The notes under the pieces were generated by a model that was not told where the DNA came from, did no database searches, and saw nothing but the letters and a program-made list of their open reading frames with translations. From Nitrospirota bacterium (GTDB lineage Bacteria > Nitrospirota > Nitrospiria > Nitrospirales > Nitrospiraceae): a stretch of 43,523 nucleotides of DNA. This document shows positions 6,805-43,523 of the stretch, piece by piece. Every line of letters begins with the position of its first letter. Positions within the stretch are counted from its first letter, which is position 1. The DNA is taken from contig JAHRHE010000008.1 in NCBI GenBank assembly GCA_020027965.1, forward strand, positions 1-43,523, given 5' to 3'. A program made the translations under genes and the position numbers.

Positions 6805-6935
6805 ATTCCTCAGAGCAGGAGCCTATGCTTGAGCCTTGTCGAGCGAAGAGCAAATAGCCAAGAGCAGACAGCGCCGAACTTCTAGCTACCAGCTACACGC
6901 TACCAGGTACTCGCTACGCGAGAGGGAAGGGAACC

Positions 6936-7214: not shown

Positions 7215-7233
7215 CCCACACGAGAGGCTCGGC

Positions 7234-8673
7234 ATGACCGCGGCCCGTCCATTTCTCATCGGTGACCGGTGGCGCCAGAGTTCCGCGACGGCCTCGGTCG
7301 TGAACCCCTACGACCGGAGTATCGTGGCGGAAGTCTGCCTCGCGGGCAAGTCCGATGCGGAGGAGGCCATCCAGACGTCGGTCACAGCCTTTGCGACCAT
7401 GAGACGGCTGCCGGCCCACGTCCGGGCGACCGCGCTGAGCACGATCGCAGCGGGGCTCACCACGCGACGTGACGAGATCGCGCGGACCATGACGGCAGAG
7501 TCGGGCAAGCCGATCACCGACGCGCGGCGAGAGGTGACCCGTGCGATTCAAACCTTCACGGTGGCCGCGGAGGAAGCCAAGCGCATCCCGGGCGAGGTGG
7601 TCCCGCTGGACCTGACGCCAGGGCTCGACACGTACCTCGGGATCGCACGCCGGTTTCCCATCGGGCCGGTGCTGGGCATCACGCCGTTTAACTTCCCTCT
7701 GAACCTCGTGGCGCACAAGGTAGCCCCCTGTCTGGCCGCCGGGAATCCAATTGTGGTGAAGCCCGCCCCGCAGACGCCGCTCACAGCCCTGATCCTGGGA
7801 GAGGTCATTCTGGAGTCGGGCCTTCCAGCGGGGGCCATCAGCGTCCTGCCGTGCGACAACCGCGTGGCCGAGGAGATGGTGGCGGATCCTCGGTTCAAAC
7901 TCCTCAGCTTCACCGGCAGCGCCGCCGTGGGGTGGATGCTCAAAGCCAAATGCGGCAAGAAGCGAGTCGTGCTGGAACTGGGCGGTAACGCGGGTGTGAT
8001 CATCGAACCGGATGCCGATCTGGAGCTGGCGGCCCAGCGGTGCGCGACCGGGGGATATGTGTATTCCGGGCAGACCTGTATCTCCGTGCAACGCATCTTC
8101 ATTCAAGAGACGGTCTATGACCGGTTTCTGGAGCAGTTCCTCAGTCGAGTCTGGGCGCTCCGGACGGGAAACCCCAAGGACGAGGAGACGGTGATCGGAC
8201 CGCTGATCGACGAGCGGGCGGCCCGTCGCGTCGAGGAGTGGATCGGGGAAGCCGTCGCGCAAGGGGCCAAGGTCCTGGCCGGCGGGAAGCGGTCCGGAGC
8301 GGTCGTGGATGCTACGGTGTTGGCCGACGTCACGCCGGCCATGAAGGTCTCGTGCCAGGAGGTCTTCGGCCCCGTCGTGACCGTGAGCCGCTATAGGCGG
8401 CTTGAAGAGGCGATTGCCGCGTTGAATGATTCTGACTACGGCCTCCAGGCCGGGCTGTTCACCCAAGACGTAGACCGGATCTTTGCGGCCTATCGTAACT
8501 TGGACGTCGGGACGGTCCTGGCCAACGAGATCCCGACCTTTCGGGCCGACCACATGCCCTATGGCGGTGTGAAGGATTCGGGCCTCGGCCGGGAGGGAGT
8601 CCGGTACGCCATTGAAGAGATGACCGAGGTGAAGCTCCTGGTGTTGAACACAAAACCTCCCGAGCGCGTGTGA
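7234..8673 (+). CDS. NAD(P)-dependent aldehyde dehydrogenase
   Basis: A 479-residue member of the aldehyde dehydrogenase superfamily, which oxidises aldehydes to acids (or acyl groups) with NAD(P)+. Catalytic residues are visible: E248 in VVLELGGNAGV and C282 in YSGQTCISVQRI, with the family's usual 34-residue spacing. Other hallmarks are TPFNFPLNLVAHKVAPCLAA, FTGSAAVGW, and the C-terminal QEVFGPVVTVSRY. The ATG at 7234 was chosen over an upstream in-frame ATG at 7129, which overlaps the zinc-ribbon gene; a GAGAGG site lies just before 7234. The substrate is not fixed by sequence. The 'RAATRREVTRAIQTF' region resembles lactaldehyde/glyceraldehyde-3-phosphate-type ALDHs. The polyamine genes nearby make an aminoaldehyde such as 4-aminobutanal another possibility. 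Confidence 0.93.
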   Translation: MTAARPFLIGDRWRQSSATASVVNPYDRSIVAEVCLAGKSDAEEAIQTSVTAFATMRRLPAHVRATALSTIAAGLTTRRDEIARTMTAESGKPITDARREVTRAIQTFTVAAEEAKRIPGEVVPLDLTPGLDTYLGIARRFPIGPVLGITPFNFPLNLVAHKVAPCLAAGNPIVVKPAPQTPLTALILGEVILESGLPAGAISVLPCDNRVAEEMVADPRFKLLSFTGSAAVGWMLKAKCGKKRVVLELGGNAGVIIEPDADLELAAQRCATGGYVYSGQTCISVQRIFIQETVYDRFLEQFLSRVWALRTGNPKDEETVIGPLIDERAARRVEEWIGEAVAQGAKVLAGGKRSGAVVDATVLADVTPAMKVSCQEVFGPVVTVSRYRRLEEAIAALNDSDYGLQAGLFTQDVDRIFAAYRNLDVGTVLANEIPTFRADHMPYGGVKDSGLGREGVRYAIEEMTEVKLLVLNTKPPERV

Positions 8674-14454: not shown

Positions 14455-14871
14455 TCACAAACTGTTCGGGTCGCGGCCGCAGGTATCGACAAAGAAATTT
14501 CCTGTTATCGGATCGTAGTAGAAGCAACTGTCCCTGGGCTCTGGCAGTTGTTCTATCGAATTCGCCAATTCAAGAAAGTCCAAAAAAGCCAAGCAGACAT
14601 TGAGTCTCTTGCCAATTCTCTGCAATAGCTGCCGGTAGCGTTCACGGAGTAAAGGGTCTAACTGCTCCTTGTGACGGTTCTTTATTGAACCGTAGTTCTC
14701 CTTGAGTGGTCCCTCGGGGTTTGTTTTGTCAATCTGCACTCGACCGATATCGTTCCCGCGCTTATTAAGAATGTGCGCATTTGGATACTCGGTAATTTCC
14801 GTTCCCTTTGAGTTAACAGCCCCCTTGTCTATTCGAGCGGTATGTCGACTATCAAGGCGAACTCGTTCAGT
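14455..14871 (-). other. Variable C-terminal tip of the RHS protein (putative toxin domain)
   Basis: This encodes residues 2264-2401. In RHS proteins the part after the DPxG motif is an exchangeable effector domain. Here it begins TERVRLDSRHTARIDKGAVN and includes TEYPNAHILNKRGNDIGRV, NRHKEQLDPLLRERYRQLLQ and a Cys-containing end. The charged H/R/K/D content would suit a nuclease, but no catalytic motif is recognised. GC content drops compared with the YD-repeat region, fitting separate acquisition. Confidence 0.55.
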
Positions 14872-17800
14872 CCCTGTTGGATCTATGAAGTAAGTCGGTC
14901 TGTTGCTCACATACGAGTAGAGAGTCGTATCCCCACCGCTGAATCCAATGGGATCTTTGTTTAAGAACCGCCCAACCACTGGATCATAATACCGCGCGCG
15001 GTAGTAATAGAGCCCTGTCTCCGGATCAAACTCCCGCCCCGTGTAGGTGTAGGGATTCTCCAGGTTGCCGGTCTGCTGCACGATGTTGCCCCAGGCGTCG
15101 TAGACGTAGCTCTGCGCGGTGGTGCCGGTCCCCTCGGTCAGCTCCGTCACCGTGCCGAAGCCATCCTGAAGATAGAAGAAGATGCTCCCGCCGCGCGTCA
15201 TGGCAATGGGCTCATCAATGCCCGGGCCGTGCGTGTAGCGAGCCAGCAGCGTGTTCGTCTCGTCGTATTCCAGCAGGATGTCTTCGCCGTCGTAGATGAA
15301 GCGGCGAGTGAGCCCGTTGCCCACCTTCTCGATCCGCCGGCCTAGACCATCGTAGCGGTATGTTGAGGTCGCCGTCGGCACCGTCGCCCCCGCTGCGAAC
15401 TCCTCGACCTTCACGAGCCGGTTTTCCGCGTCGTAGGTGTAATCGGTGTGCACGCCGCTGGCCTTGACGGTCTTGCGAATGAGATTGCCGTTCGCGTCGT
15501 ACTGGTACGTGAACCCGCTGTCTTCGGTTAATTGGTTGCCCGTATTGTGCTGGCTGCTGTTGGTCGTCCGGTTGCCGACCGGATCATAGGCGAACGTTTG
15601 ATCCAACGTCAGCGGGTGCGTGGCGGAGGTCAGCCGATCCAGCGCATCATAGCTGAATGATTGCGTCCCGCGCTTATCACCGAGACTCGTTCTGTTCCCG
15701 ACGTTGTTGTAAGTGTACGTGGCCTCGTTGATCGGCGCGTTGGTCGCCGTGATCTTGTGCAGGATATTCGTGACCTGGCTCGCCGGATCGTAGGAATACG
15801 TGGTCTGCGTCCCATTGGGCAGGCTCATCGAGGTGCGGCGGCTCAGCGTATCGTAGGCGTAGGTCGTGGTCCCGGCCGGACTCGTGAGCGAGCTGAGGCG
15901 GTTCAGGGGATCGTAGCTGTAGCTATTGGTCCCGGTTGGGTTGGCCAACATCAAGCGATTCCCATTCTTGTCGTAGGTGTAGCTCAGCGCGACGGCTGGC
16001 TGGTTCGGCGAGCCAGTGGTCGAGACGATGGTCAGGCGATTGGCCAGATCATAGGTCATGGCCAGCACACTATCGGGATCGGTGACGCCACTCAAGTTGC
16101 CCACACTATCATAGGCGTAGCTGGTCACCAGGTTCCCCGGTAGCGTCTTGCTCAGCAATTGATTGACCGCATCATAGACGAACGTGATGGTCTCGTTCCT
16201 GGGCGTGACCCGCGTGGTCAAGTTATCGGCCCCATCGTAGGTATAGGTCTCCGTCTTGCCCAGCGGGTCGGTGGTCGACGCCAGCCGGTTGAGCGCGTCA
16301 TAGGCATACGTCGTCACCTGCCCCTTCGCATCCGTCACTGTCACCAGATTGCCATTCCCATCGTACGCATAGCGCGTCACTCCACTGGCCGGGTCGGTCA
16401 CCTGCGTCAGGCGATTCAGCGGATCGTACGTGAACCGCGTCACTCGGCCCAGGGCGTCCGTATTCGTGGCCACATTCCCCGCCGCATCATACGCCAGCGT
16501 TGTGGTCCTGCCAAGAGGATCGGTGGTGGTAAGCAGGCGGCCGAGGCTGTCGTAGGTAAAAGTCGTCGTTTGGCCGAGCGCATCGGTGGTTGTGGTGAGC
16601 AAGCCGCGCGGATCGTAGGCCAGTGTGGTGACTTTGCCGTCGGCATCCGTGATCTGTGTGGGATTGCCCTTGGCATCATAGCCGATGGTCGTGGTGTTGT
16701 TCTTCGGATCTTGAACGCTGGTCACCTGATTGAACGTTGGCTCATAGGTGAACGTGGTCGTGGCCGCAATGGCCTGCTCGTTCGTGGTGAGCAGGTTGCC
16801 CTTGGCATCGTAGGTCATCGTCGTGACGGCGCTGTTGGGGCGGGTGATTCGCGTGGGATTCCCCTGGGCATCCCGCTGGATAGTGGTCGCCCGGTTCAGC
16901 GCGTCCGTCTGCTTGCTCACGCGGGACAAGGCGTCCAGTTCGAACACCGTGGCATTGCCCCGCGCGTCGGTGAAGCGGGCCGTATTCCCCGCGGGCGCGA
17001 GTGGCGCGGGGTTGGCCTGGGTCCCCTCACCGGCGGCGAGATTCGGCACGGCGGCGAGTTGGGAGGGGGTGATCTTTCGCACCGCGCCCGTGGGCAGGGT
17101 GACTTGGGTGAGCCGGCCGGCGTGGTCGTACTGATAGTGCGTCACCTGGCTCCGGGCATCGGTGCGCTGGGTCATGCGGCGTTGCGGATCGTAGACGAAC
17201 TGCTGGGTCGTGCTGTCCGCATAGGTGACGCGCGTGAGATTCCCGTCGCCGTCGTGCTGGAGCTGCGTGACCCGCCCGGCAGGATCGGTGATGGCCTGAA
17301 GCCGCCCGCCGCTGTAGCTGAAGGTGGTGATGAGGCCCACCGGGTCGGTGATCCTGAGCAGGCGGCCGTCGGCATCGTAGGCATAGGTCGTCTGGTTGCC
17401 GTTCCGGTCCGTGACGGTGGTCTGGAGCCCTTGGGCGTTGAAGTCGTAGCGGGTCCTGTCCTTGAGGGTGCGCGTGAAGGTGCCGTCGGGGTTCTTGGTG
17501 AGGGTCGAAAAATCTCCCGGGGGGCCTGTCAACGTGCTGCTGCTCCCGGGCGGAGCCGGAGCGGGCCGAAACCCCGGCGCCTCGGCTAGGAAGGCCATGG
17601 TGTTCAGGAACAGGGTCCGGTTGACGCTATAGTAGTTGGCCCAGGGGCCCGCGAGATTGCTGCCAAAGATGTCTTCATCGCCAATCAGGACCGCGCGGCC
17701 GGTTCCTCCGAAGCCCGGCCCCGGTTGGAGCAGGAGCAGATCGGGCCCCGCGCCATTGGTGGCGACCGCGGTCGTGCTACCGGTGAGCGTATAGGACCAG

Positions 17801-20800
17801 TTGCAGCCCATGAACAGCGTTCCGGCTGGCGCGGTCCCAAACGGCCCCTGCCGCAGCACCGAGGTCAGCCCAACGCCGGTGTAAGTGGAAAACCCCACAC
17901 AGACTAAGCCGCCGAGATCGGTCCCCAGGATCGGGGGGTCGAAATCGTTGAAGGCGCCCAGTTGCAACAGCGCGCCGCCCTCTTGGAGGAACTCCTCCAG
18001 CCCCACCGCCTCGGTGGGGGTCAACGGCGAGGAGAGGGGGCCGTAGATAATGACATCCACGCCAGCCAGGGCAGCCGTCGTGATCGTCTGCAGGCCCGAG
18101 CGGAACTGGACAGGGCGCCTGACGATCCCCGTCGGCCCGAAGTTGGCAGGATCCAGCAGATCGTTCTTCGCCGCGCCATAGCCGGTCCCGCCGAGAAAAC
18201 TGAAGGTGGTCGCGGGATCTGCCGTGACCCCGCCGGCCCGGCCGACGCCGACGCTCTCGATGACGAGCGGCCGGGCGGCGGGCTCAAACACCGCGAGGGC
18301 GCCCTCCCCGCTGGCCAGCAGCACCGCTCCGTCGGGCTGGGGCAGGACACGGTCGAGCCCGGCCAGCAGCCAGCCTGCCCCGAGGGAGCTCTCGCGCTCA
18401 TTCCGCACGAGCACAAGGCTGCTGAGGCCGCCGCCGATGCTGGACTGGGGATAGTTGGAGAACAGCATAGCCTCATACCGGTAGCGCCCGGTGGGGAACT
18501 GGCTCGCGTCCCATGGCAGCCCGAGGCGCGAGACGGAATTCGCGTCCTCGGGCAGACCGGCCGCATTCCAATAGAGGTCGCCCCCCTGCTGGAGGCCCCC
18601 GACGGTCAGCCGCGCCGAGAAGGTCTGCGGCACCGCCGCGACCACCGGCAGGCTGGCATCGAGCGGCAGGATCGGACGCACATCCGCGGTGGTGGAGCGG
18701 TAGTGGAGCCGGAGATCGCGGCTTACCCCCACCGAGCGGACGCTGGCGAGGGGGAGATCCAGGCTGAGGGCGCCTTCTTCCAGGTCGCTCTGGGAGCCGG
18801 TGGTACAGGCGGTGCAGGTGCCTGTCTCTCCTTTTCGGGCAAAGACCGGGGCGGGGCCGGGCGCCAGGGCGAAGTGCCAGGCGGTTTTGCGCACGCCCCC
18901 GCTGATGGTTTCAATCCGTTGTCCATCCGCGCTCACCCGCATCACGCCCACCTGCAAGAACGTGCCGGTGTCCGGGGAGAGCGACCAGAGGTCCAGCTCG
19001 TTGCCGGGGGCCATTCCGTCCACGTTCGGAAAGGTGATCGGCACCGGGGGATCGAGCACGACGCCGGCCGGCTGAATGGTGATCGAGAGTCCCGGCCGCA
19101 GCTCCGCCGGCCGGGATTCCACGCGGCCGTACTCGGGCACCGGGCTGATCGTGAGCACCCCTGTGTACTCCGTCCCATCCGCGTTCTTGGCGGTGTGCGG
19201 CGGAATGGTCACGGCCACGTTCAGGGTGGTGCTCTGCACCACCGTGGCGGCGTTCGGATTGACGGGCACCGCGGTGGTCATGTCCACCGGCGGCAGCGTC
19301 AGCGGTTGCGGCAGTTGATTCGTGACGTTGGCGATGAGATCCACCGGAGCGACGAGGTTGGCATAGCCCTGAGTAAAGCCCGTGACCACCACCTGCTGGC
19401 GCCCAACCTGCGTCTCCGGGATGCCGGTTAGGGTGAACTGCCCCTGCGCATCGGTGAGCGTACTCAGGCTGGTCCCTTTCAGGGCGACAATCACCTGAGA
19501 GACGGGCTGGCGCGCGGTATCATCCACCCGGCCAGTGAGGGCGGTCGCGCCGCCCGGCGGCGCACCGGGCACGGTGAGCGTGATGGTTTCGGACGACATA
19601 TGCGCGCCGTCACTGGCCACAATGGTCACCATGAACGTCCCGACCTGCGACGCGTCCGGCGTGAACATGAACTCGCCAGTCTGGGCGTTGAACGCCGCAT
19701 GGGCCGGCAAGGGCACCGGTGTCACTGCAAAGGTCACCAGGTCACTCTCAGGATCGGTTGCCGCCACCGTGAAGGCCAGCGTGCTCCCCAACGGGACAGT
19801 CTTGTTCCCGATGGGCGCCAACACGGGCGCCGCATTGGTGACGATAAACGGTGCGGCACTGGTGGCGCTCCCTTGCGGCGTCGTCACCGTGATGAGGCCG
19901 GTCGTGGCGCCTGCCGGCACGGTGGCGGTGAGCGCGGAGGGGCTCGTGACCGAAACGGTCTGAGCGGGCACGCCGCTCAAGGTGACCGACTGGACGTTCA
20001 CGAAGTTCGTGCCGGTAATCATGACCGGCGTCCCCACGGGTCCCTGCGCCGGCGTGAAGCTCGTGATCGTCGGCGCGGTGAGCACGGTGAAAGGCGCGGC
20101 GCTGCTCGCTGTGCCGCCCGGCGTTGTCACAGTCACAGGGCCGCTGGTCGCGTCGGGGGGCACCGTGGCCGTCAGCGCAGTGGGACTTGAGACCGTGAAG
20201 GACGACGCGGGGACGCCGTTGAAAGTCACCGACTGGACATTCACGAAATTTGTGCCCGTGAGCTGGACGACCGTCCCGATCGGCCCGCTGCTGGGCGTCA
20301 CCCCGGTGAGGGTCGGCGCCGGAAGAACCGTCGCGAACGAGCTGGTGAACGTGAGCAGCGGATTCCCGGCTCGATCCGTAAGCCCGCTCAGCCGCAGTGT
20401 GTAGGTGGTGCCTTCGGCGAGGGGAGCCGCGGGCACAAAGAAAGCCAAGAGGCCGGATTCGCCCGGACTCACAGTACCAGGGACCGGGCCCTGCGGCCCT
20501 GTGAGCGTCAGCGTGGCGCCGGTGAGGGTGGTCACCCGGATGGGCTCGGAGAACCGGATCGCAACGAGCGGCGTGCGTGAGATGCCGGTGGCGTCATTGG
20601 CCGGCGTGACCTCCAGCACCGTGGGCGGCGTCGTGTCCTGCCCCGGCTGGGAATACAATTCAGTGTCCCGTGTCGGATCTTTGTCGTCATCGTCCCGGCC
20701 TCCGGCAATCAGGATGTCCCCGGCCGGGAGCACGGTCGCCGTATGATTGAATCGCCCCTCGCGCAGCTTGGGCCGAAGTGTTGCGAAGGTCTGGGCGGCC

Positions 20801-21660
20801 GGATCAAAGACCTCGACCGAGTCGAGGGCATCTTTCTTGGACCGCCCGCCGGCGGTCAGCACACGCCCATCATTCAGCAGGCTGGCGGTGTGTCGCAGAC
20901 GTCCAGTCTGAAGATGGCTGTCGAGCAGCCGGCTCTCCCCCGTGGCCGGGTCGACCAGCTCAGCCGAGTCTAGGATCTCGTCGTCCTGTCGCCCACCCAC
21001 CACGAGCACCTGGCCCGTCGGCAGCAGGGTCGCCGTGTGATTGTGCCGCGGCACGGCCAGAGCATGGGGCAAGAGAGTCACGTGTCCGTTGCGTGGATCG
21101 TAGAGCATGCCGGTGGGCACCTCGAACGACTCCCCTGACTCCAGCGCGAGACGAGACGCATCCAGCCCGCCGAGAATCAGCACCCGGCCGTCGGGCAGCA
21201 GGGTGGCGGTGTGCCCGGCCCGCGGCACCTGGACCGTGGCCGGAAGGGGATGAAAGCTGCCGTCCCGCTGAAACAGTTCAGTGGTGAAGAGCACCCCGGC
21301 CGTATCCCGGCCACCGGCCAGCAGCGTCTCGCCGGTCGGCAAGAGCGTCGCCGTGTGCTCGGTGCGGGGGACGCTCAGCTCGGCTGACAGCAGCGTGCTC
21401 CGCAGAGTCTGGGGATCAAACACCTCGACGCTGTCCAGGATGTCGTGGTCCTTGCGCCGGCCGCCCGTGATCAGGACGGTGCCGTCGGCGAGCAAGGTGG
21501 CAGTGTGCCCCGCCCGCGCCTGCGCGAGTTTGCCGGTTCGCATAGATGGGGAATTGGCCCAGAGGCTGGAGCTCAGGGACAGGAGGCAGGCGGACCAGAG
21601 GACAGCCCCGGCGAGCCCTCGCGCAGTCCAGGCCATGGCTGGCTTGCCCGCAGTGCTCAT
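14455..21660 (-). CDS. Giant secreted kelch/Ig-like/RHS-repeat protein with variable C-terminal tip
   Basis: A 2401-residue protein. After a signal peptide (residues ~12-36) come kelch-type beta-propeller repeats (~40-335; repeated 'HTATLL.DG.VL..GG'). Then come a Big_5 Ig-like domain (~342-440; PPTVLEVTPANDATGISRTP), two IPT/TIG domains (~443-605; SSGPIGTVVQLTGTNF), a putative-Ig/cadherin-like domain (~607-690), a carboxypeptidase-regulatory-like domain (~705-780), a linker, and an N-terminal RHS region (~950-1250). Many YD repeats (~1400-2200; e.g. TYAYDADGRLLRITDP) form the RHS shell. The RHS core ends TGREFDPETGLYYYRARYYD..GRFLNKDPIG (D2236). The last ~138 residues (after DPTG, residue 2263) are unlike the rest and of lower GC, the usual polymorphic toxin tip. 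A terminator at 21737-21760 separates it from the upstream secretion operon. Confidence 0.9.
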   Translation of the reverse strand: MSTAGKPAMAWTARGLAGAVLWSACLLSLSSSLWANSPSMRTGKLAQARAGHTATLLADGTVLITGGRRKDHDILDSVEVFDPQTLRSTLLSAELSVPRTEHTATLLPTGETLLAGGRDTAGVLFTTELFQRDGSFHPLPATVQVPRAGHTATLLPDGRVLILGGLDASRLALESGESFEVPTGMLYDPRNGHVTLLPHALAVPRHNHTATLLPTGQVLVVGGRQDDEILDSAELVDPATGESRLLDSHLQTGRLRHTASLLNDGRVLTAGGRSKKDALDSVEVFDPAAQTFATLRPKLREGRFNHTATVLPAGDILIAGGRDDDDKDPTRDTELYSQPGQDTTPPTVLEVTPANDATGISRTPLVAIRFSEPIRVTTLTGATLTLTGPQGPVPGTVSPGESGLLAFFVPAAPLAEGTTYTLRLSGLTDRAGNPLLTFTSSFATVLPAPTLTGVTPSSGPIGTVVQLTGTNFVNVQSVTFNGVPASSFTVSSPTALTATVPPDATSGPVTVTTPGGTASSAAPFTVLTAPTITSFTPAQGPVGTPVMITGTNFVNVQSVTLSGVPAQTVSVTSPSALTATVPAGATTGLITVTTPQGSATSAAPFIVTNAAPVLAPIGNKTVPLGSTLAFTVAATDPESDLVTFAVTPVPLPAHAAFNAQTGEFMFTPDASQVGTFMVTIVASDGAHMSSETITLTVPGAPPGGATALTGRVDDTARQPVSQVIVALKGTSLSTLTDAQGQFTLTGIPETQVGRQQVVVTGFTQGYANLVAPVDLIANVTNQLPQPLTLPPVDMTTAVPVNPNAATVVQSTTLNVAVTIPPHTAKNADGTEYTGVLTISPVPEYGRVESRPAELRPGLSITIQPAGVVLDPPVPITFPNVDGMAPGNELDLWSLSPDTGTFLQVGVMRVSADGQRIETISGGVRKTAWHFALAPGPAPVFARKGETGTCTACTTGSQSDLEEGALSLDLPLASVRSVGVSRDLRLHYRSTTADVRPILPLDASLPVVAAVPQTFSARLTVGGLQQGGDLYWNAAGLPEDANSVSRLGLPWDASQFPTGRYRYEAMLFSNYPQSSIGGGLSSLVLVRNERESSLGAGWLLAGLDRVLPQPDGAVLLASGEGALAVFEPAARPLVIESVGVGRAGGVTADPATTFSFLGGTGYGAAKNDLLDPANFGPTGIVRRPVQFRSGLQTITTAALAGVDVIIYGPLSSPLTPTEAVGLEEFLQEGGALLQLGAFNDFDPPILGTDLGGLVCVGFSTYTGVGLTSVLRQGPFGTAPAGTLFMGCNWSYTLTGSTTAVATNGAGPDLLLLQPGPGFGGTGRAVLIGDEDIFGSNLAGPWANYYSVNRTLFLNTMAFLAEAPGFRPAPAPPGSSSTLTGPPGDFSTLTKNPDGTFTRTLKDRTRYDFNAQGLQTTVTDRNGNQTTYAYDADGRLLRITDPVGLITTFSYSGGRLQAITDPAGRVTQLQHDGDGNLTRVTYADSTTQQFVYDPQRRMTQRTDARSQVTHYQYDHAGRLTQVTLPTGAVRKITPSQLAAVPNLAAGEGTQANPAPLAPAGNTARFTDARGNATVFELDALSRVSKQTDALNRATTIQRDAQGNPTRITRPNSAVTTMTYDAKGNLLTTNEQAIAATTTFTYEPTFNQVTSVQDPKNNTTTIGYDAKGNPTQITDADGKVTTLAYDPRGLLTTTTDALGQTTTFTYDSLGRLLTTTDPLGRTTTLAYDAAGNVATNTDALGRVTRFTYDPLNRLTQVTDPASGVTRYAYDGNGNLVTVTDAKGQVTTYAYDALNRLASTTDPLGKTETYTYDGADNLTTRVTPRNETITFVYDAVNQLLSKTLPGNLVTSYAYDSVGNLSGVTDPDSVLAMTYDLANRLTIVSTTGSPNQPAVALSYTYDKNGNRLMLANPTGTNSYSYDPLNRLSSLTSPAGTTTYAYDTLSRRTSMSLPNGTQTTYSYDPASQVTNILHKITATNAPINEATYTYNNVGNRTSLGDKRGTQSFSYDALDRLTSATHPLTLDQTFAYDPVGNRTTNSSQHNTGNQLTEDSGFTYQYDANGNLIRKTVKASGVHTDYTYDAENRLVKVEEFAAGATVPTATSTYRYDGLGRRIEKVGNGLTRRFIYDGEDILLEYDETNTLLARYTHGPGIDEPIAMTRGGSIFFYLQDGFGTVTELTEGTGTTAQSYVYDAWGNIVQQTGNLENPYTYTGREFDPETGLYYYRARYYDPVVGRFLNKDPIGFSGGDTTLYSYVSNRPTYFIDPTGTERVRLDSRHTARIDKGAVNSKGTEITEYPNAHILNKRGNDIGRVQIDKTNPEGPLKENYGSIKNRHKEQLDPLLRERYRQLLQRIGKRLNVCLAFLDFLELANSIEQLPEPRDSCFYYDPITGNFFVDTCGRDPNSL

Positions 21661-31986: not shown

Positions 31987-32101
31987 CTCACTTCTGTAGT
32001 GAAGCTCCATCAGATCGCTTCTGCCCCCTGCTTTGTGCCAATTGCGACGTCATGCGAGCGAATTCCTTCGCCGAGACCACTTGATGAAAGGACCAGGCTA
32101 T

Positions 32102-34948
32102 ATGAATCACCGGATGGCTCGGTTGTTTCTTCCTCTCCTTCTGTTCTTCGCACCTCCACTCTGGAGTTCGCACGCTTCGGCCGACACCCCGCGCGGAGCC
32201 GGGATCGTGACAGCGGTCTCCGGGCAGGCGACCGTGACGAAGTTTGCTCGTCCGCAACCGATCGCGCTCAAGTTTCGTGACGAGGTCTATCGAGGCGACA
32301 AGATCAGCACCGGCGAGCACTCGCTGGTGCGCGTGTTGCTGGACGGGAAGGCGCTCGTCACGGTAAGGGAACTGTCGGATTTCACGATTACCGAAGAGCA
32401 GGGCCGTCCCACCCTGGTGGAGATGGTGAAGGGAAAGCTGGCGATGGCCGTGGCGCGCCTACGAATGCGCCCGGGCGAAGTGATCGAGGTACGGACTCCC
32501 AACGCGGTGGCCGCGGTGCGTGGCACCGTGCTTATCGTGGAGGTCACACCGGCATCCAGCGGGCTGTTCTCGCTGGGCTCGGCCGCCGTGACGACCACCA
32601 TCAGCGTGCTTAAGGGTTTTGTGGAAGTGACGCCCCGCGACTCGCTGGCCAGGCCGGTGACAGTGGGTGCGTTCCAGAGTGTCAGCGTGACCGGGGCGAC
32701 GATGGGGCCGCTCCGACAGCTCCCTCCTGTGGCCGTCGACACGCTCCGGCAGATGGGGAAGGCCCCGCTCCAGCACACGGAGTCCTCTGAGGAGTTCAAG
32801 AAGGGAGCCAGTGAGAAGGAAGTGGGAAAAGCCACGGCGCTCGCGATGCTGCTGTCACCGGGGGAGCCGAAGCCTGAGCAAAAGCCGAGTGAGACCGCCA
32901 AGGAAAAGCCGAAGGACGGACGGGCTGACCCGGAGCTTGCCGACGCGTCCTCGCCGCTGGTCCAGCAGGCGGCCAACGCCTCGACCAGTGTCGCGGCCCC
33001 GACCAAGACACCAGGGAACCCCAACGGAGCGCCCGTGGCTTCCACCACGAACCCTGAAGGTGTGGCTCAGGGTCAAGGCGTGCCGGATGTTCAAATCAAC
33101 GGCGCATCCATGGTGCTCGGTTCGGGAGAGAGTCTGAAAACCTTCAGCGGAACCAGCGTCCGTCTGGGTTCTTCCCCCGTGGTCCAGATCACGAATGCGA
33201 CGGTGAGCCAGTCTGCACCCGACAGCCTGATCACTGTAGTGCCCGGAGCCGACGCGACCATTCAGGGCGCGCTCCTCAACGTGAGCAACAGCACGCTGAC
33301 TCCAGGGTCTGCGGTGGTCTCGGTTCAAGGCGGACTCACTCAGACAGGGCCGGACAGCCTGATCGAAGTCGGTGGTCCGGTCACCGTCAACGGCCCCTTG
33401 CTCGTTGCCACGAACGGTCTGCTGACGGTCCCCACGAGCAAGCCGCTGCTGGATCTGGCTGCCGGCGCCACGCTGTCAGTCGGCGGGTCCCTCCTGGATC
33501 TGACGAATACGCCTCTTAATCTCGGCAACCAGAGTCTGGCGCAATTGAGCAGCGGAAGCTCCTTGAGCATGACGGCGGGCCCGGCTCTCCGGATCAACGG
33601 TGGCTCCCTCACACTCGATGCCCTGTTTCAATCTGCCGGTCCCGGAAACACCATCCAGATCACGGGCAGCACGCTGGATCTTTCCGACGCCACGGTCACG
33701 ATGGGGTCGCTGGTTGGGGGCACGGCGCCGACGCTCCAGCGGACGCTGGCGGCCGGCGAGCCGGCCATACGCCTGACGAGCAGCACCCTGAACCTGACCC
33801 GGTCGAATGAGCCGTTGGTCATGTTCGAGGGCACCGGCATGAACCCGTCAGGCGGGTCCGGGGTCGCCGTGATTGCAAGCGACAGTACAATCAACACCAA
33901 CGGACCGCTACTCCAGCTCTCCGGCGGGAATCTGGGGTTGACGCTGACGGATACGTCCCCACAGATCCAGCTCGCGGGAACCACGGTCTGTACGAGCTGT
34001 CCGGCGGGTCCGAATCACAATCTCATCGAGGTTTCCGGGTCCAGTGGCGTGCAGGTTGCCGGCCAGCTCTTGAACGCCGTCAACAGCACGATCACGATTC
34101 CGGGCAATAATGTCGGGTTGCTCGAGATCCCCACCGGAGTCTCGCTGACCGCGACGTCCCTCAATCCACTGTTCTCATTGTCCGGCGGCTCGCTGACCGC
34201 CAGCACCCTGTTCGATTTCCAAGGCAGCCCGGCGAACCGTGCCTTTGATCCTGAGACCGGGCAGAATCAGGCCACCGACCGGCCGCTGAAGGGTGCGGGC
34301 GTCTGCCCATCCTGTCCCGTTCGGGCATCCCTCATCGAAGCCTCCGGTGCGTCAATTGGGTCCGACGCGGCTCCGATCCAGGAGGCGATCAGTATCGACG
34401 CGGCCCTTCTGGAAGCAACGATGCCGCTGATTAGCGCGATGGCTGCGACCCGCATTGTTTCCGCTGGGGATCTGATCGGCCTCGCCCGATCGGCCAAGGT
34501 CACCAGTGTGGGGCCCGTCCTGACTCTGAATGGCAGCTCGATCTCTGTCTTAACTGGCTCCTTAATCAATCTGGCGGGCGGCAGCTTTCTGAAGGTGACC
34601 GGCGATCTGATGGTCCTCAGCAATGGGAGTCTGATCAATATCCAGCACGCAAACAGCGGATTCCTGATCGCAGCGTCCGGCGGGTCTGTCCTGAACGTAT
34701 CAGGGGCCCTGGTGGCCTTCGGCGGATCCGGCGGCAATAGCATCGTGGTGAATAACACTGCGCGTCCGAGCGCAACGATTTTCGGGATCCCCATCAGCCT
34801 GACCGGTGGGGCTCAACTTGACCAGGTGAGCATTACCGGCACGCCCATCAAAGGCTCCGGTCTCGGAACGATCTCCTTCCCCAATGGCGGCAGCCTCATC
34901 GAGGTTCATGGGCCCCAAACCCGTGTCACGATTACCGGGTTGCCGTAA
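32102..34948 (+). CDS. Large FecR-domain surface protein with repeat-rich passenger
   Basis: A 948-residue exported protein. The signal peptide LFLPLLLFFAPPLWSSHASA is followed by a FecR domain (~30-150): GIVTAVSGQATVTKFA, FRDEVYRGDKISTGEHSLVRVLLDGKALVTV, and VIEVRTPNAVAAVRGTVLIVEV. In known systems this domain is a periplasmic signalling or binding module; here it lacks a TonB-sigma context. A Lys/Pro-rich linker (~215-300) leads to ~650 residues of low-complexity Ser/Thr/Asn/Gly/Leu repeats such as SLINLAGGSFLKVTGDLMVLSNGS and SNSTLTPGSAVVSVQGG. These suggest a beta-helix or adhesin-like passenger. There is no autotransporter barrel, sortase site or RTX motif, so export needs a separate machine. 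ATG 32102 is preceded by AAAGGA; ATG 32084 is in frame. Confidence 0.85.
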   Translation: MNHRMARLFLPLLLFFAPPLWSSHASADTPRGAGIVTAVSGQATVTKFARPQPIALKFRDEVYRGDKISTGEHSLVRVLLDGKALVTVRELSDFTITEEQGRPTLVEMVKGKLAMAVARLRMRPGEVIEVRTPNAVAAVRGTVLIVEVTPASSGLFSLGSAAVTTTISVLKGFVEVTPRDSLARPVTVGAFQSVSVTGATMGPLRQLPPVAVDTLRQMGKAPLQHTESSEEFKKGASEKEVGKATALAMLLSPGEPKPEQKPSETAKEKPKDGRADPELADASSPLVQQAANASTSVAAPTKTPGNPNGAPVASTTNPEGVAQGQGVPDVQINGASMVLGSGESLKTFSGTSVRLGSSPVVQITNATVSQSAPDSLITVVPGADATIQGALLNVSNSTLTPGSAVVSVQGGLTQTGPDSLIEVGGPVTVNGPLLVATNGLLTVPTSKPLLDLAAGATLSVGGSLLDLTNTPLNLGNQSLAQLSSGSSLSMTAGPALRINGGSLTLDALFQSAGPGNTIQITGSTLDLSDATVTMGSLVGGTAPTLQRTLAAGEPAIRLTSSTLNLTRSNEPLVMFEGTGMNPSGGSGVAVIASDSTINTNGPLLQLSGGNLGLTLTDTSPQIQLAGTTVCTSCPAGPNHNLIEVSGSSGVQVAGQLLNAVNSTITIPGNNVGLLEIPTGVSLTATSLNPLFSLSGGSLTASTLFDFQGSPANRAFDPETGQNQATDRPLKGAGVCPSCPVRASLIEASGASIGSDAAPIQEAISIDAALLEATMPLISAMAATRIVSAGDLIGLARSAKVTSVGPVLTLNGSSISVLTGSLINLAGGSFLKVTGDLMVLSNGSLINIQHANSGFLIAASGGSVLNVSGALVAFGGSGGNSIVVNNTARPSATIFGIPISLTGGAQLDQVSITGTPIKGSGLGTISFPNGGSLIEVHGPQTRVTITGLP

Positions 34949-35181: not shown

Positions 35182-36789
35182 TCAGAACTGCCAGGCGAGA
35201 CTCAGCGTGCCGACGAACCGGTTATAGTTGAAAATGACCGGGATGTTGGAGTGACTGAGGGTGGCCTGGAAATCCGCCGCCACGGTGAAATTGTAGGGGA
35301 GGGGTTTCTCCACTCGGGCGACATAGTTCTGCTCCGTGACGTTTTGCTTGACCGTGCCCGGAGCGTTGGTCGGAAACACCGCGTTCGGAAACGGGTACTT
35401 CCTGAAGTGGACATCGAAATCTAATTTGAGGCGAGTGTCTCCCCACGGGAGGGTGTACTGGAGGCCGGCGAGGAGCCGGTTTCCCCGATAGTACCAGTCT
35501 TGTCCCTCGGCATCTTCGAGGTCGTACTGGTAGCCGATCCGGATCAGATGCCGGTCGTTGGCGAACCGGAAGAGGTGCGTGATGCCGACCATCCAGTTGG
35601 TCGCGCTGCGGTTCTCCTCAGGGATGGTGCCTCCGCCGATCAGGAACTGATCCGCAAAGTCTTTCCCCTGGACCCGGCCCTGCAGGGTGGTCAGGTGGCC
35701 TGAGTTCTCCACGAGCGTGCCGAAGAGGGTGGCGGTCAGGCGATTGAGGAACTGGTCGTTGCCGAGCGTCATGTCATCATAGGCAAGCTGCAGGCCGACC
35801 TGGAACGGCATGAAGGCGACGAGGCCCCGGTAGTAGCCGGACAGCGTGCCCAGGTGATCCCGCACGTTGAAGCTCGGGATGGCATTGTTGAGCGTCTGGA
35901 AAAAGGTATAGCCGGCCGTGGCCTCCCAGGGCCCGGCTCTGAGAAACGCATATTCGAGGTGTGCCGCCGCCAACTCTCCCGGCGAGTCCGACTTTCGACC
36001 GCGGAGCGCTTCCGCCGTTGGGTCGCCGCTCGGCAAGGGATTGACGGTCACGTTGCTGTCATAGAATCCGCCGAACCGGAGCTCGCCGTGGAACCGTCGC
36101 TCGCGGTCGCGGACGGTCAGGAGCGTGTCGCGCAGTCGGTCGGCCGGGCCGCTCAGCGGGGAGACTGTCCGGATCCTGGTCGCCTCCTCCAACTCGCCGG
36201 CCGCCCGCTCGGGCTCACCGAGGATCGCCAACGCCAGGCCGGTGTAGAAGCGCGTGAGTTGCTGAAGGTTGGGATCTGTCGTGGCGCCGGCGCTGAAGGC
36301 CAGGAGCGCACCTTGGTAGTCCTTGTTCCGGTAGCGGATGAAGCCCAGGTAGTAGCCGAGGCCGTCCGTTTGTGGCCGTTCTTTGAACACAAGGCTCAGA
36401 AGCGGCTCCGCCTTGTCATACCGCTCCAGGCTGAAGTAGGCGACGCCCAGGTGGAAGGCGATGGAGAGGTCGTCCGGCGCCCTGCGTCTGGCCGTTTCCA
36501 GAACCGCTGCGGCTTCGGCAAACTTCTGCTGGGCCATGAACACCAGACCGGTGTAGTAGAGGGCCTCCACATTGTCCGGGTCCATTTCCAGGGCTTCGCG
36601 GAGCCGGGCGAGCGCCTCCTCGTACTTTTTCTCCTCATAGGCCAGCACCGCATGGGCGACGAAGACGTCAGCCTCGGAAGCCTGGGCAGCCGCCACCTCC
36701 GGCAACACGATCAGCGCGACGATCCAGAGTGATGCGGCGAGCGCGAGGTTCCTGGTGTAAGCGGAAGGCAGCACGCCCTGACGTGTCAC
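35182..36789 (-). CDS. TPR plus beta-barrel outer-membrane protein
   Basis: A 535-residue protein. The signal peptide LAASLWIVALIVLPEVAAAQA is followed by five or six tetratricopeptide repeats (~40-240), e.g. AVLAYEEKKYEEALARLREALEMDP and AFHLGVAYFSLERYDKAEPLL. The C-terminal ~290 residues form many alternating strands (FHGELRFGGFYDSNVTVNPLP, HLIRIGYQYDLEDAEGQDWYY). The protein ends TLSLAWQF, with the terminal aromatic residue recognised by the Bam machine. TPR-plus-barrel layout recalls the Slam/DUF560 export proteins and other TPR porins, but family membership cannot be proved by eye. It is convergent with the FecR-domain protein, a possible client. The GTG at 36789 is weakly supported; GTG 36774 is an alternative. 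Confidence 0.82.
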   Translation of the reverse strand: MTRQGVLPSAYTRNLALAASLWIVALIVLPEVAAAQASEADVFVAHAVLAYEEKKYEEALARLREALEMDPDNVEALYYTGLVFMAQQKFAEAAAVLETARRRAPDDLSIAFHLGVAYFSLERYDKAEPLLSLVFKERPQTDGLGYYLGFIRYRNKDYQGALLAFSAGATTDPNLQQLTRFYTGLALAILGEPERAAGELEEATRIRTVSPLSGPADRLRDTLLTVRDRERRFHGELRFGGFYDSNVTVNPLPSGDPTAEALRGRKSDSPGELAAAHLEYAFLRAGPWEATAGYTFFQTLNNAIPSFNVRDHLGTLSGYYRGLVAFMPFQVGLQLAYDDMTLGNDQFLNRLTATLFGTLVENSGHLTTLQGRVQGKDFADQFLIGGGTIPEENRSATNWMVGITHLFRFANDRHLIRIGYQYDLEDAEGQDWYYRGNRLLAGLQYTLPWGDTRLKLDFDVHFRKYPFPNAVFPTNAPGTVKQNVTEQNYVARVEKPLPYNFTVAADFQATLSHSNIPVIFNYNRFVGTLSLAWQF

Positions 36790-39900: not shown

Positions 39901-40734
39901 TCACTGCTCTCCAGACTGCTTGTACGAGGTCCGGATGATCCACGAGGCGATTTGCGACTGGTCGGTTCCCGAGATCCGGGAGAACCGCAGTTCCATCCCC
40001 GGGGGGCTGGAGCGAGGGCCGTCACCGGGGGCGTCGCTGGACCGTCGTGCCGGACGGCGGCTTGAGGTCACGGTGGCCTGCGCGACGATCGGACGGCTCG
40101 AGCCGGGAAGGTAGAAGTTCAGACTCAACGCGGTCTCTGGCGGGAGCGGCGTGGGAGTCTCCACGAATGCGCCGAGATGATTCAATTGCGTAATGGTTGC
40201 GACCTGCGTCGCCTCGTCCTTTGCCTCATGGGTCTTCATCGAGGCGGTGATGCGGGACTCTCGCTGGGTGGGCGAAAAGACCAGGTCCCGCGCCGTGAGG
40301 ACTCCGATGGGCCGCGTGGCTTTCGTGACCACCAGGAGCGGGACCCCCTTCGAGGCCATAATGGTCGCAGCGCTTTCGATGGATTGGTCGAACTCGATGG
40401 TTTGGACCGGCATCGACATGATCGTGCGCGCTTCCACCTCGCTGGGATGCAGTCCCTTCACCACGACCTTGTAGACGATGTCCGTGTGGGACAGGAGGCC
40501 GGTGCGGCGTTCCGTGTCCTTGACCAGCAAACAGGGGACATGCTCCTTGCGCAGGAGTCGTGCGGCCTCGAGGACCGAGAGGTCACCAGGAATCTGGACA
40601 ATGCCCCGCGTCATCGCATGGACCACCAGCGGGGGATGGTCCTTGCCCAGACCGAACAGATGATCCTTGGCTTGAATCATAACAGAGCCGATATCTCCGG
40701 CGATGGCCTGCTCTGGTGTGCTGTGGGGGCTCAC
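39901..40734 (-). CDS. CBS-domain pair with PilZ-like C-terminal domain
   Basis: A 277-residue cytoplasmic protein. Two CBS motifs occupy ~38-160: VQIPGDLSVLEAARLLRKEHVPCLLVKD with TGLLSHTDIVYKVV, and VQTIEFDQSIESAATIMASKGVPLLVVTK with IGVLTARDLVF. Such pairs bind adenosine nucleotides and act as regulatory switches. The last ~110 residues (ALSLNFYLPGSSRPIVAQATVTSSRR..GMELRFSRISGTDQSQIASWI) have the strand order of a PilZ domain, but the N-terminal RxxxR and DxSxxG motifs are not clear, so c-di-GMP binding is doubtful. It lies next to the divergent MNIO gene and 9 kb from the cyclase-PilZ protein. Confidence 0.8.
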   Translation of the reverse strand: MSPHSTPEQAIAGDIGSVMIQAKDHLFGLGKDHPPLVVHAMTRGIVQIPGDLSVLEAARLLRKEHVPCLLVKDTERRTGLLSHTDIVYKVVVKGLHPSEVEARTIMSMPVQTIEFDQSIESAATIMASKGVPLLVVTKATRPIGVLTARDLVFSPTQRESRITASMKTHEAKDEATQVATITQLNHLGAFVETPTPLPPETALSLNFYLPGSSRPIVAQATVTSSRRPARRSSDAPGDGPRSSPPGMELRFSRISGTDQSQIASWIIRTSYKQSGEQ

Positions 40735-40836
40735 AAGAAGGCGATATTATAGAATTACTATACCAGATAGATGCCGTGGCTCCTAGCGAAACATCCCTTG
40801 TCAAACAGCGCCCGTCGCGATTACACTGACCCGATC

Positions 40837-42309
40837 ATGACCGCGTGTGACCACGAATTCCGGCGTCGCGTGACACACATCCCTCCCCATGGGATGGGGC
40901 TGTCGGTGGATGTCTATTCGCCTGCCCTGTTTGAGCTCGTCGGCGCGCTCGATGGGGGCGGGCTTCCTTACGGCTACCTGGAGATCTTCCGGGCCCCTGA
41001 ACCTGTCCTCTCGGCGGTACGGAAGGGCCTGCCCTCAGCGCTGTTGGAGTACCACGCTGAGGGGATCTGGGTGACCCAGCCCGGGCTCGAGGCGGACTAT
41101 CCGCTCGGTGCCGAACTGGCCGAGACGGCCGCGAACCTGCGCGCACTGGGCAGTCACTGGCTGAACCACGAATGCGCGAGCAAGCAGATCGCCGGCTATT
41201 CCTTCGGGACGTACCTGCCGCCCCTGTTCACCCGCGCAAGCGCCAACCTCACGGCCGAGAACGCCACGATCGTTCAGCAGCGTCTTGATGATCTGAGCGC
41301 GAAGCCCGGCCACCCGGGGCCCCTCCTGCTGCTGGAATTGCCGCCGCTGACCTATTTTGGAGCGGGCGATCTTCCGGTGGCGGAGTTCTTTCGGCGGCTG
41401 GCCGAGAGGGCTGCCTGCGGGCTGGTGTTGGATGTGGGACATCTCTGGACGGTCTACTGCTACACCGGCGAGTGGCGGCGCCGATCGGTGGAGGCCTTTG
41501 TGGCGGAGTTTCTGGACGCCTTTCCGCTGGAGCGCGTCGTGCAAGTGCACCTGGCCGGCCTGGCCTGCCACCCCGACGATGTCTCTTCCGTGCTGCCGGA
41601 CTCAAGACCGTGTCCGCGGTGGATCGATGCCCATGCGGCCCCGATCCCGGCGGTGCTGTGCGAGATGCTGGCGCAGGTGCTCTCGCACCCCGACCTGAGG
41701 TTTCTCAAGGGCGTGGCCCTGGAGGTGGACACGAAACCGGTCTCCCTGATTCTCTCAGAGTTCGAGCGGGTGCGTGCTCGATTCGGCGAGCTCGTCGAGC
41801 GCCTCTCACAGAGGGTCGCCCCTGCAAGCCTTGCACGCCCGGGCGCCTCGCCCGAGCCACGGTCGGTCGAGCGCGAGCCCAGCGCGGAGGCTCAAGGACT
41901 GCGGGAGCAGTATGAGCTGTACGCTCGCACCGTGACCGGTCGGTCATCGGCGGAGCTGCCCGCGCTGTTCCGAGGCTTCGGCACCGAATCCGAGGCGCTG
42001 AATGCGTATCGCCAGGCCTACCTGCCGCACGAGATCCTGGTCTGGGGAGGAGATCTCCGGGATATGTTTCCGGAGACCTGCCGGGAGCTGGACGCGCGCC
42101 ACATCCCCCTCGGCGGATTCGTCCACTATTGGTTTCGGCAGGCGCGAGCGGTTCTGAGTCCCTACGATTTTTTCCTGCTGAAGTCGGAGCGGTTCTGTGA
42201 GTACGTGGAGGAAGTCCTGCCGAGCGCAGCCTGCACCGCCGCTCGCGAAGCCGCCGAGCTTCGGGCCGCCTATCAGGATGCATGTGTACCCGTCGTTCGT
42301 GAAGCGTGA
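40837..42309 (+). CDS. Divergent DUF692/MNIO enzyme fused to an extra C-terminal domain
   Basis: A 490-residue protein. Residues ~15-320 follow the DUF692 TIM-barrel (MNIO) pattern: H73 in EYHAEGIW, H111 with LPPLFT (LNHECASKQIAGYSFGTYLPP), E167 in LLLELPPLTYF, D199/H202 in LVLDVGHLW, H238 in VVQVHLAGL, D264/H266 in WIDAHAAPI, and E296 in VALEVDTKP. MNIO enzymes bind two or three irons and oxidise cysteines in peptides (methanobactin MbnB, TglH). Two usual Asn ligands are changed here (EN to EL, DVNN to DVGH), so the metal site is atypical. A Pro/Arg linker (~325-365) leads to a ~125-residue domain (YLPHEILVWGGDLRDMFPET, FVHYWFRQARAVLSPYDFFL) not recognised. No precursor peptide is seen beside it. 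ATG 40771 is in frame but less likely. Confidence 0.8.
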   Translation: MTACDHEFRRRVTHIPPHGMGLSVDVYSPALFELVGALDGGGLPYGYLEIFRAPEPVLSAVRKGLPSALLEYHAEGIWVTQPGLEADYPLGAELAETAANLRALGSHWLNHECASKQIAGYSFGTYLPPLFTRASANLTAENATIVQQRLDDLSAKPGHPGPLLLLELPPLTYFGAGDLPVAEFFRRLAERAACGLVLDVGHLWTVYCYTGEWRRRSVEAFVAEFLDAFPLERVVQVHLAGLACHPDDVSSVLPDSRPCPRWIDAHAAPIPAVLCEMLAQVLSHPDLRFLKGVALEVDTKPVSLILSEFERVRARFGELVERLSQRVAPASLARPGASPEPRSVEREPSAEAQGLREQYELYARTVTGRSSAELPALFRGFGTESEALNAYRQAYLPHEILVWGGDLRDMFPETCRELDARHIPLGGFVHYWFRQARAVLSPYDFFLLKSERFCEYVEEVLPSAACTAAREAAELRAAYQDACVPVVREA

Positions 42310-42345
42310 CGCGTGAGGTGTAAGGTGCTGAGACCGGAGCACACG

Positions 42346-43523
42346 ATGGAACAATTCTTGACGTGTCACGAGTCACCGGGACCCATTGCTCAACAGAATG
42401 CAATGGGTGCCCCGCATCACGTTCCGTTCTGGCAGACGCTCCCGCAGCCCATCATCGGGCTGTCCCCGATGGACGGCGTCACGGACGCTGCGTTCAGGCT
42501 GGTGGTCGCCACCCAGGGGCCGCCGGATGTCATGTTTACGGAGTTCACCAGTGTGGGGGATCTCTGTCGCGGGCCAGACTATGTGCTGACCTCGCTCCTG
42601 TATGGCGAAGTCGAGCGGCCGGTGGTGGCGCAGCTCTACGGCAAGGACCCGGACCTCTTCTACCTGGCGGCCCATGCGGTGTGTGAGTTGGGATTTGATG
42701 GGCTGGACATCAACATGGGGTGTCCCTCTCGCAGCGTCGCCTCGTCCGGCTCCGGCGCCGGTCTGATCCGGACGCCGGCGCTCGCTCACGCCATTATGCG
42801 CGCCGCACGCCAGGGCATCCTCGATTGGGCAGCGGGCCAGACTCCTGAAGGGGCAGGCTTGCGTCCGGCGCGCGTGGACCTCATCCGGACGATGAACCTC
42901 AGGCGGAACGGGTCTTCCAGCCCACGGCGGCGGGTCATTCCCCTGTCGGTCAAAACGCGCCTTGGTTATGACTCGGTCGTCATTGAGGAGTGGGTGACCC
43001 ATCTCCTGGAAGAGCGGCCGGTGGCCCTCTCGGTGCATGGTCGCACACTGCAGCAGATGTACCGGGGGGAGGCGGACTGGACGGCCATTGAGCGAGCCGC
43101 CAGGCTGGCCCGGCAGACCGACACGCTGTTGCTGGGCAATGGCGACCTGCATTCCACGCTGGATGTCGTTCACAGGCTCCGCGAGACCTCAGTGCATGGG
43201 GTGCTGGTCGGGCGCGGTGCGCTTGGCAGTCCGTGGTTCTTCCGGGGAAAGGAGACCATGCGGGCGGCCGTAATGGCGCAAGGGGGATGGTTACAACGCG
43301 GCGGCGATCTGGCTGAGGTGCTCACCCAGGAGGCCGATGACCTCTCGCGGCGCTTCAAGGTGATGCTGGAGCATGCCCGCCTCTTCGAGGCCCTGTTCGG
43401 CGTGGAACGCTTCCCGCACATGCGCAAGCATCTGGGCTGGTACTGCAAGGGATTCCGTCAGGCAGCCGCCATGCGGGCGGAGATGGTGCGAGCCTCCAGC
43501 AGCGGCGATGTGGAGCGGATCGT
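42346..43523 (+). CDS. tRNA-dihydrouridine synthase (3' end beyond the window)
   Basis: At least 392 residues, running off the right edge. It is an FMN-dependent TIM-barrel enzyme that reduces uridine to dihydrouridine in tRNA. Family motifs are IIGLSPMDGVTDAAFRLVV, PVVAQLYGKDPDLFYLAA, FDGLDINMGCPSRSVASSGSGAGL (catalytic Cys region), LSVKTRLGYD, VALSVHGRTLQQMYRGEADW, and VLVGRGALGSPWFF (FMN phosphate binding). About 45 residues between the GCPS and VKTRLGYD blocks are an insertion compared with short Dus proteins. The ATG at 42346 places a hairpin repeat (42382-42407) inside the coding region; ATG 42403 is an alternative that would leave the hairpin in the leader. Confidence 0.92.
   Translation, partial: MEQFLTCHESPGPIAQQNAMGAPHHVPFWQTLPQPIIGLSPMDGVTDAAFRLVVATQGPPDVMFTEFTSVGDLCRGPDYVLTSLLYGEVERPVVAQLYGKDPDLFYLAAHAVCELGFDGLDINMGCPSRSVASSGSGAGLIRTPALAHAIMRAARQGILDWAAGQTPEGAGLRPARVDLIRTMNLRRNGSSSPRRRVIPLSVKTRLGYDSVVIEEWVTHLLEERPVALSVHGRTLQQMYRGEADWTAIERAARLARQTDTLLLGNGDLHSTLDVVHRLRETSVHGVLVGRGALGSPWFFRGKETMRAAVMAQGGWLQRGGDLAEVLTQEADDLSRRFKVMLEHARLFEALFGVERFPHMRKHLGWYCKGFRQAAAMRAEMVRASSSGDVERI
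42382..42407. repeat. CCCATTGC/GCAATGGG hairpin, near-copy of one in the 10.5 kb element
   Basis: CCCATTGC (42382-42389) and GCAATGGG (42400-42407) form an 8-bp stem. The loop TCAACAGAAT resembles the loop TCCCAGAAAT of the hairpin at 10569-10594. The two hairpins are almost identical in sequence, so they share an origin. Confidence 0.55.

Follow-up and report, generated by a model that had tools for sequence, protein, structure and literature searches.

A conserved MNIO-family enzyme of Nitrospirota with a fused C-terminal helical domain

The characterized relatives of the MNIO (DUF692) family are iron enzymes that oxidize peptides into copper-binding compounds. The residue that they oxidize is usually a cysteine, and such enzymes are familiar as members of accessory peptide clusters. 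A gene of this family from a Nitrospirota bacterium raises the question of what such an enzyme does when it carries an additional domain and has no precursor peptide beside it. The window analyzed here is a stretch of 43,523 nucleotides from a contig of a 3.6-Mb draft genome, and the gene occupies positions 40837–42309 of the + strand, on which all of its features given below are located. The reading frame is open from the ATG at 40837 to the stop codon ending at 42309 and encodes 490 residues. An alternative, longer in-frame ORF begins at 40771, and the starts of the orthologs cluster near 40837.

PF05114 (MNIO/DUF692) matches residues 98–313 with an E value of 6.7e-13 and 48.9 bits against a Pfam cut-off of 25. 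The placement of the enzyme in this family is near certain. The scores against the NCBIfam equivalogs of named subfamilies fall far under their cut-offs (ApyH, 37.2 versus 400 bits; BufB, 29 versus 310; HvfB, 18.5 versus 360; ChrH, 15 versus 600). The closest named relative, at 56% identity, is from a Nitrospiraceae metagenome-assembled genome from Lake Baikal. For the comparison of orthologs, 51 of 55 distinct relatives were aligned together with P0001, giving the 52 full-length sequences of alignment A2. Two relatives had been set aside before (L049, which is split, and L057, in which the match ends before residue 450), and two were omitted for an in-frame stop (L005) and a disrupted frame (L059). 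PF05114 matches all 52 sequences at E values up to 5.

The protein consists of a TIM-barrel MNIO domain (about residues 15–318; 40879–41790), a variable linker (about residues 319–349; 41791–41883) that is poorly conserved in alignments A2 and A3, and a C-terminal helical domain of about 135 residues (residues 350–490; 41884–42306). The whole protein was modeled with AlphaFold2 from an alignment of two sequences, and this model is of low confidence (pLDDT 49.7). Its seven best structural rows are nonetheless all MNIO structures, with Z values of 9.9–12.2, whereas other barrels reach at most 8.9. The best rows include 3bww (Z 12.2, rmsd 4.3, 207 residues aligned), TglH (Z 11.8, rmsd 4.3, 221 aligned), and MbnB (Z 11.2, rmsd 4.4, 220 aligned).

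The ligand positions of the barrel can be compared with those of two characterized enzymes. The ligands listed for TglH are His71, His107, Glu151, Asp184, His216, and Glu258 at iron sites 1 and 2, and Asp184, Asn187, Asp229, and His231 at iron site 3 (PMC10880893). MbnB is described with an equivalent ligand set, and its Asp240 is the proposed general base (PMC8888699). Eight ligand or base positions are unchanged in all 52 orthologs. His73 (41053–41055) is the equivalent of TglH His71 of site 1 and is also a histidine in 21 of 21 canonical MNIOs, whereas Glu167 (41335–41337) corresponds to the bridging residue Glu151 of TglH and Glu135 of MbnB. The position of Glu167 comes from aligning the protein to MbnB with HMMER, because MAFFT shifts it by one. 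Asp199 is the equivalent of TglH Asp184, His238 (41548–41550) of His216, and the two outer residues of Asp264-Ala-His266 (41626–41634) of Asp229 and His231. In Glu296-Val-Asp298 (41722–41730), the glutamate matches TglH ligand Glu258 and the aspartate matches the MbnB general base Asp240, and both are also constant in the 21 canonical enzymes.

Five of the six ligands of sites 1 and 2 are accordingly invariant in the 52 orthologs. The sixth, at the position of TglH His107, falls on His111-Glu112 (41167–41172), one of which stands in for the site 1 histidine, and the alignments disagree as to which. A profile-profile alignment pairs His111 with the His107 ligand, whereas the HMMER alignment to TglH places the adjacent Glu112 in register with it, within a low-scoring stretch. 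His111 is found in 47 of the 52 orthologs and is replaced by Gln or Leu in the other 5, whereas Glu112 is constant. Going by these alignments, iron site 1 may also differ in one of its ligands.

A second difference is at site 3. In Asp199-Val-Gly-His202 (41431–41442) the aspartate is kept and the ligand Asn187 of TglH is replaced by a histidine; Asp199, Gly201, and His202 are constant in 52 of 52 orthologs, whereas the canonical MNIOs have Asp and Asn at the two ligand positions in 21 of 21 cases. The first-pass annotation had noted two replacements, EN to EL and VNN to VGH, and had taken them for the loss of two asparagine ligands. Both readings are correct, and an altered metal site is borne out, but the asparagine of EN is not among the listed ligands. 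The position after Glu167 is variable in the family (M, L, T, I, or V). Since the published ligand lists hold a single asparagine each, Asn187 in TglH (PMC10880893) and Asn168 in MbnB (PMC8888699), one asparagine ligand has changed rather than two, and its replacement is itself a good ligand. The zinc ligands given for an AP endonuclease include Asp179 and His182, a D-x-x-H pair (PMC7076025). Site 3 of the Nitrospirota protein has the same pair, so that the barrel resembles an MNIO whose third site is of the endonuclease IV type.

The C-terminal stretch has no Pfam or NCBIfam family, which upholds the earlier description of the protein as an MNIO/DUF692 enzyme with an unrecognized C-terminal domain. 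Its conservation among the orthologs shows that it is a genuine domain rather than a fortuitous extension. When 295 genomes were searched with a sequence model of only this domain, 105 gave a match, with one copy in each. The open frame bearing it is at least 292 amino acids long in 104 of these genomes and 166 amino acids long in the remaining one, G419. The domain thus occurs solely with the enzyme in 104 of the 105 matching genomes, which ties it to the enzyme.

The structure predicted for the domain alone (pLDDT 72, pTM 0.64) has eight helices. A structural match of the C-terminus to an unrelated domain would have spoken against the reading of the first-pass annotation; Foldseek gave no significant match for the domain model, and the highest query TM-score, 0.46, belonged to TglI. 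When the structures were realigned, two TglI chains ranked first and second of 128, over chain residues 4–159. These rows are weak (Z 5.5, rmsd 7.1, and 121 residues aligned for the first; Z 5.1, rmsd 7.3, and 120 aligned for the second); the Z values are below the trust level of the tool itself and prove nothing alone. A Z of 5.1 is reached by one further chain, which belongs to an unrelated protein, and many helical folds score near 4–5. The match carries weight because TglI is exactly the kind of protein that the partner hypothesis names: in TglI, a helical N-terminal domain that docks on TglH at two loops is followed by a C-terminal RRE. MbnC and NGO1945 (3dee) are absent from the fold lists obtained for the domain, which is uninformative by itself. 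A viral fold library gave nothing significant, and when the sequences of the PDB were searched using the profile of the domain, the best match was an unrelated protein at an E value of 1.

Sequence profiles did not separate the domain from controls when it was compared with the DUF2063 partners of MNIOs. Of 53 domains, alignment A5 has 43 (ten close relatives omitted), and of 22 collected partners, alignment A6 has 18; shuffled, reversed, and unrelated sequences served as controls in the comparisons. With hhalign, E values of 0.01–0.03 were obtained locally and 0.28 with the alignments of the tool, unseparated from the controls, and with a local DUF2063 HMM the shuffled sequences scored as high as the real ones. 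Among 90 profile segments, two DUF2063 profiles ranked 7 and 8, below four segments of the domain's own family and two unrelated ones. The alignment register against DUF2063 is sensible (helix 1, Y-R, F-P), and it is the scores that do not stand out. PF09836 (DUF2063) matches a single one of the 52 orthologs, within the domain at an E value of 0.15, and none of the 43 isolated domains. As for an RRE, no strand is predicted after the helices in the domain model, the chain ends there, and the profile comparison with RRE halves gives E values of 0.37–0.62. A chaperone domain like that of nitrate reductase delta was considered and dropped, with one match at an E value of 0.16 among the 43 domains. 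A DUF2063 partner encoded elsewhere in the organism was likewise rejected, as a search of its own genome found no DUF2063 gene.

One relative carries the two parts as separate genes. In G419 (L049) the enzyme ORF (5976–6917, 314 amino acids) is followed by an overlapping ORF in another frame (6890–7357) that encodes the C-terminal domain. The ATG of the second ORF lies within the end of the first, with GGAG just before it. The gene order is that of classical clusters, MNIO and then partner. This is the only such case seen, and in a single draft genome the split could be a frameshift. Three observations speak against a real split: the G419 barrel nests within the fused clade in the barrel tree described below, two other genomes have broken frames in this gene, and the three genomes of the same family yielded no second case.

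The proposal that the fused domain replaces the separate partner is plausible. The top structural rank of TglI, weak as it is, the split genes of one relative, and the lack of a DUF2063 gene favor it, and the sequence profiles, unseparated from controls, do not. The chances that the domain acts as a built-in MNIO partner are about even.

The gene is flanked in the window by gaps of about 100 bases or less on each side. Downstream, a dihydrouridine synthase gene (42313–43521, + strand; PF01207) is cut by the end of the window. In 17 loci compared, mostly of the same family, such a gene lies downstream in 14 and a Maf-like gene in 13. In two loci of family f4 the enzyme gene follows glutamate synthase genes, in family f22 the genes around it include a CheZ-like one, and in G419 it is placed between sirohaem synthase and Band-7 genes. 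No neighbor is constant across lineages. After the enzyme, dihydrouridine synthase, and Maf genes, 13 of the 17 loci also have a gene for a protein of about 245 amino acids without a Pfam family (L002, 10156–10893, and relatives), and the N terminus of this protein resembles a signal peptide by eye.

Other genes of the window were noted in passing. The product of 39901–40734 (- strand), a gene divergent to the enzyme gene, has two CBS domains and matches PilZ weakly. A 971-residue protein (32033–34948, + strand) has a FecR domain, is repetitive over the long rest of its sequence, and is perhaps a surface protein; a TPR protein is encoded next to it on the opposite strand (35182–36789, - strand). 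The - strand also has an open reading frame of 2401 residues at 14455–21660.

Outside the conserved genes of 35 loci, 582 small ORFs with at least two cysteines were found, and groups of similar ORFs among them were common to three loci at most. The first-pass statement that no obvious precursor peptide lies nearby was supported in this way, as neither the window nor the surroundings of 34 related loci gave a common candidate, and a nearby precursor was discarded as an explanation. An acquired RiPP cluster was also dismissed, as the conserved synteny in the family speaks against it. No separate partner gene adjoins the enzyme in the window or in the compared loci. With no common precursor candidate and with neighbors that change between lineages, the enzyme probably acts in trans, and its substrate is most likely encoded elsewhere in the genome.

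The gene is widespread in its own order, where 190 of 235 genomes have a match at an E value up to 1e-3. Five of these have weak matches alone (E values of 1e-7 to 1e-15), perhaps to fragments or to canonical MNIOs. A wider sample, of 395 genomes from the phylum, gave 142 with a match. Among them, 21 genomes of the distant family f22, which we take to be Leptospirillum-like, match at about 29–41% identity, mostly across both domains. The gene is missing from some clades, for example from 13 listed genomes of genus g28, and broken copies occur in G023 (in-frame stop), G213 (disrupted frame), and G018 (truncated). The viral contigs searched held no copy, the plasmids gave one partial match covering 18% of the query, and a PADLOC run reported nothing. 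Since the gene lies outside any peptide cluster and is kept by most of the Nitrospirales genomes searched, it probably has a basic job.

The fused proteins are separate from the classical enzymes. A PF05114 scan of 240 genomes splits in two, with canonical MNIOs at E values of 1e-97 to 1e-107 and a second group, the fused family, mostly at 1e-5 to 1e-19. Classical DUF2063 partner genes are few (16 of 245 Nitrospirota genomes), and the fused form is widespread. In a maximum-likelihood tree of 78 barrels, the 52 fused proteins and the split one group together, apart from 23 canonical MNIOs, on a branch of 2.9 changes per column with support of 100/100; deeper joins in this tree are unsure because the branches are long. 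A distinct subfamily, as the first-pass annotation had suggested, is thus supported, and the protein represents a conserved MNIO subfamily, distinct from the named ones, that probably acts in trans. Two further MNIO-like proteins with very long branches, L067 942–2006 (G013) and L126 4028–4936 (G071), belong neither to the canonical nor to the fused family, and their neighbors may hold other partners.

Of the known systems, TglHI (TglH with its partner TglI, 3-thiaglutamate) shares with the Nitrospirota protein the barrel family, sites 1 and 2 to a large part, the Asp and His of site 3, and, weakly, the N-terminal domain of TglI as the nearest likeness of the C-terminal domain model. It differs in having two chains, whereas the Nitrospirota protein is one chain, apparently without an RRE domain, with no precursor gene nearby, and with histidine for asparagine at site 3. 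MbnBC, of methanobactin biosynthesis, is similar in its ligand positions and general base aspartate, but the Nitrospirota system has neither an MbnC gene nor an MbnA-like peptide, and the sequence similarity is low. BufBC and HvfBC, the bufferin and oxazolin MNIOs with DUF2063 partners, have PF05114 and the order of enzyme and then partner in common with the fused family, which forms a separate clade. An engineered HvfB-HvfC fusion with the same domain order is reported as active (PMC13419390). An MNIO with an extra domain is also found in MNIO-nitroreductase fusions and in MovX and ChrH, the latter two described with a fused or additional domain (PMC13419390). The C-terminal domain given for MovX is an RRE (PMC13419390), whereas the model of the extra domain here consists of helices and shows no features of an RRE. 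A large survey names the MNIO-nitroreductase fusions and collected about 14,000 MNIOs by Pfam signature; no name beginning with "nitrospir" occurs in its main text, and, given this way of collecting, the fused proteins may well be included without comment (PMC12452194). Our literature search found no paper joining MNIO or DUF692 with Nitrospira.

The reading that we favor, with a little less than an even chance of being right, is that of a single-chain MNIO holoenzyme that has a partner-like helical domain, lacks an RRE, and acts in trans. The barrel would bind two or three ions of a metal that is most likely iron and would activate O2 to oxidize a residue of a peptide or protein encoded elsewhere; oxidase chemistry is likely. 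The C-terminal helical domain would stand in for the N-terminal domain, likewise helical, of the usual partner, docking on the barrel and shaping the active-site cavity. With the leader-binding RRE half of that partner missing, the substrate would probably be recognized without a leader peptide, an arrangement that would fit a folded protein or, in trans, a dedicated substrate. The conserved extra domain in partner order and the genome without a DUF2063 gene argue for this arrangement, and the histidine at site 3 argues against it, as alanine or serine in place of the site 3 asparagine is reported to abolish HvfB activity, even though site 3 may stay unfilled (PMC13419390). It is also possible, if rather doubtful, that the protein is an MNIO oxidase whose C-terminal domain is unrelated to partners and serves in dimerization, membrane or target binding, or as a chaperone-like element. 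That no library names the domain, that no sequence profile links it to DUF2063, and that many helical folds match it about as well would fit such a role. The first two places and the top TM-score of TglI count against it, as does the need of classical MNIOs for a partner in a genome that has no DUF2063 gene.

The barrel itself could alternatively be a non-oxidative metal enzyme, performing three-metal hydrolysis or isomerization at a third site of the AP endonuclease IV type. This is unlikely, although the Asp199-x-x-His202 pair occurs in 52 of 52 orthologs and matches Asp179/His182 of an AP endonuclease (PMC7076025), and although an endonuclease IV structure ranks fourth among the Foldseek matches of the full-length model. 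PF01261 (AP endonuclease IV/xylose isomerase-like) matches 8 of the 52 orthologs at E values up to 5, the best being 2.6e-4, and no PF01261 protein was found in the draft genome of the organism (G000), whereas 13 of 14 control genomes have one. PF05114, in contrast, is found in all 52 with far better scores, MNIO structures outrank all other barrels, and the general base aspartate of MbnB is kept; beyond the D-x-x-H at the third metal, both sequence and fold scores lie much nearer to MNIOs. That the gene is a degenerate or pseudogenized MNIO without catalytic function is very improbable: the three broken copies would agree with decay, but the ligand positions do not vary among the 52 orthologs, and the gene is retained by most genomes of the order.

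The lineage offers a natural experiment on how much of its partner protein an MNIO needs and, with asparagine uniformly changed to histidine, on the third iron site, which is debated. An MNIO that is kept by most of a nitrifier order and by a distant family, without a precursor or partner gene, suggests a basic role in the cell. We put forward, as a speculative proposal, a housekeeping MNIO, single-chain and RRE-less with an endonuclease-IV-like third site, that would modify a core cellular protein rather than a secreted peptide in Nitrospira-type nitrite oxidizers and Leptospirillum-type iron oxidizers. If true, it would mean that an MNIO lineage has moved from RiPP biosynthesis to a conserved cell function.
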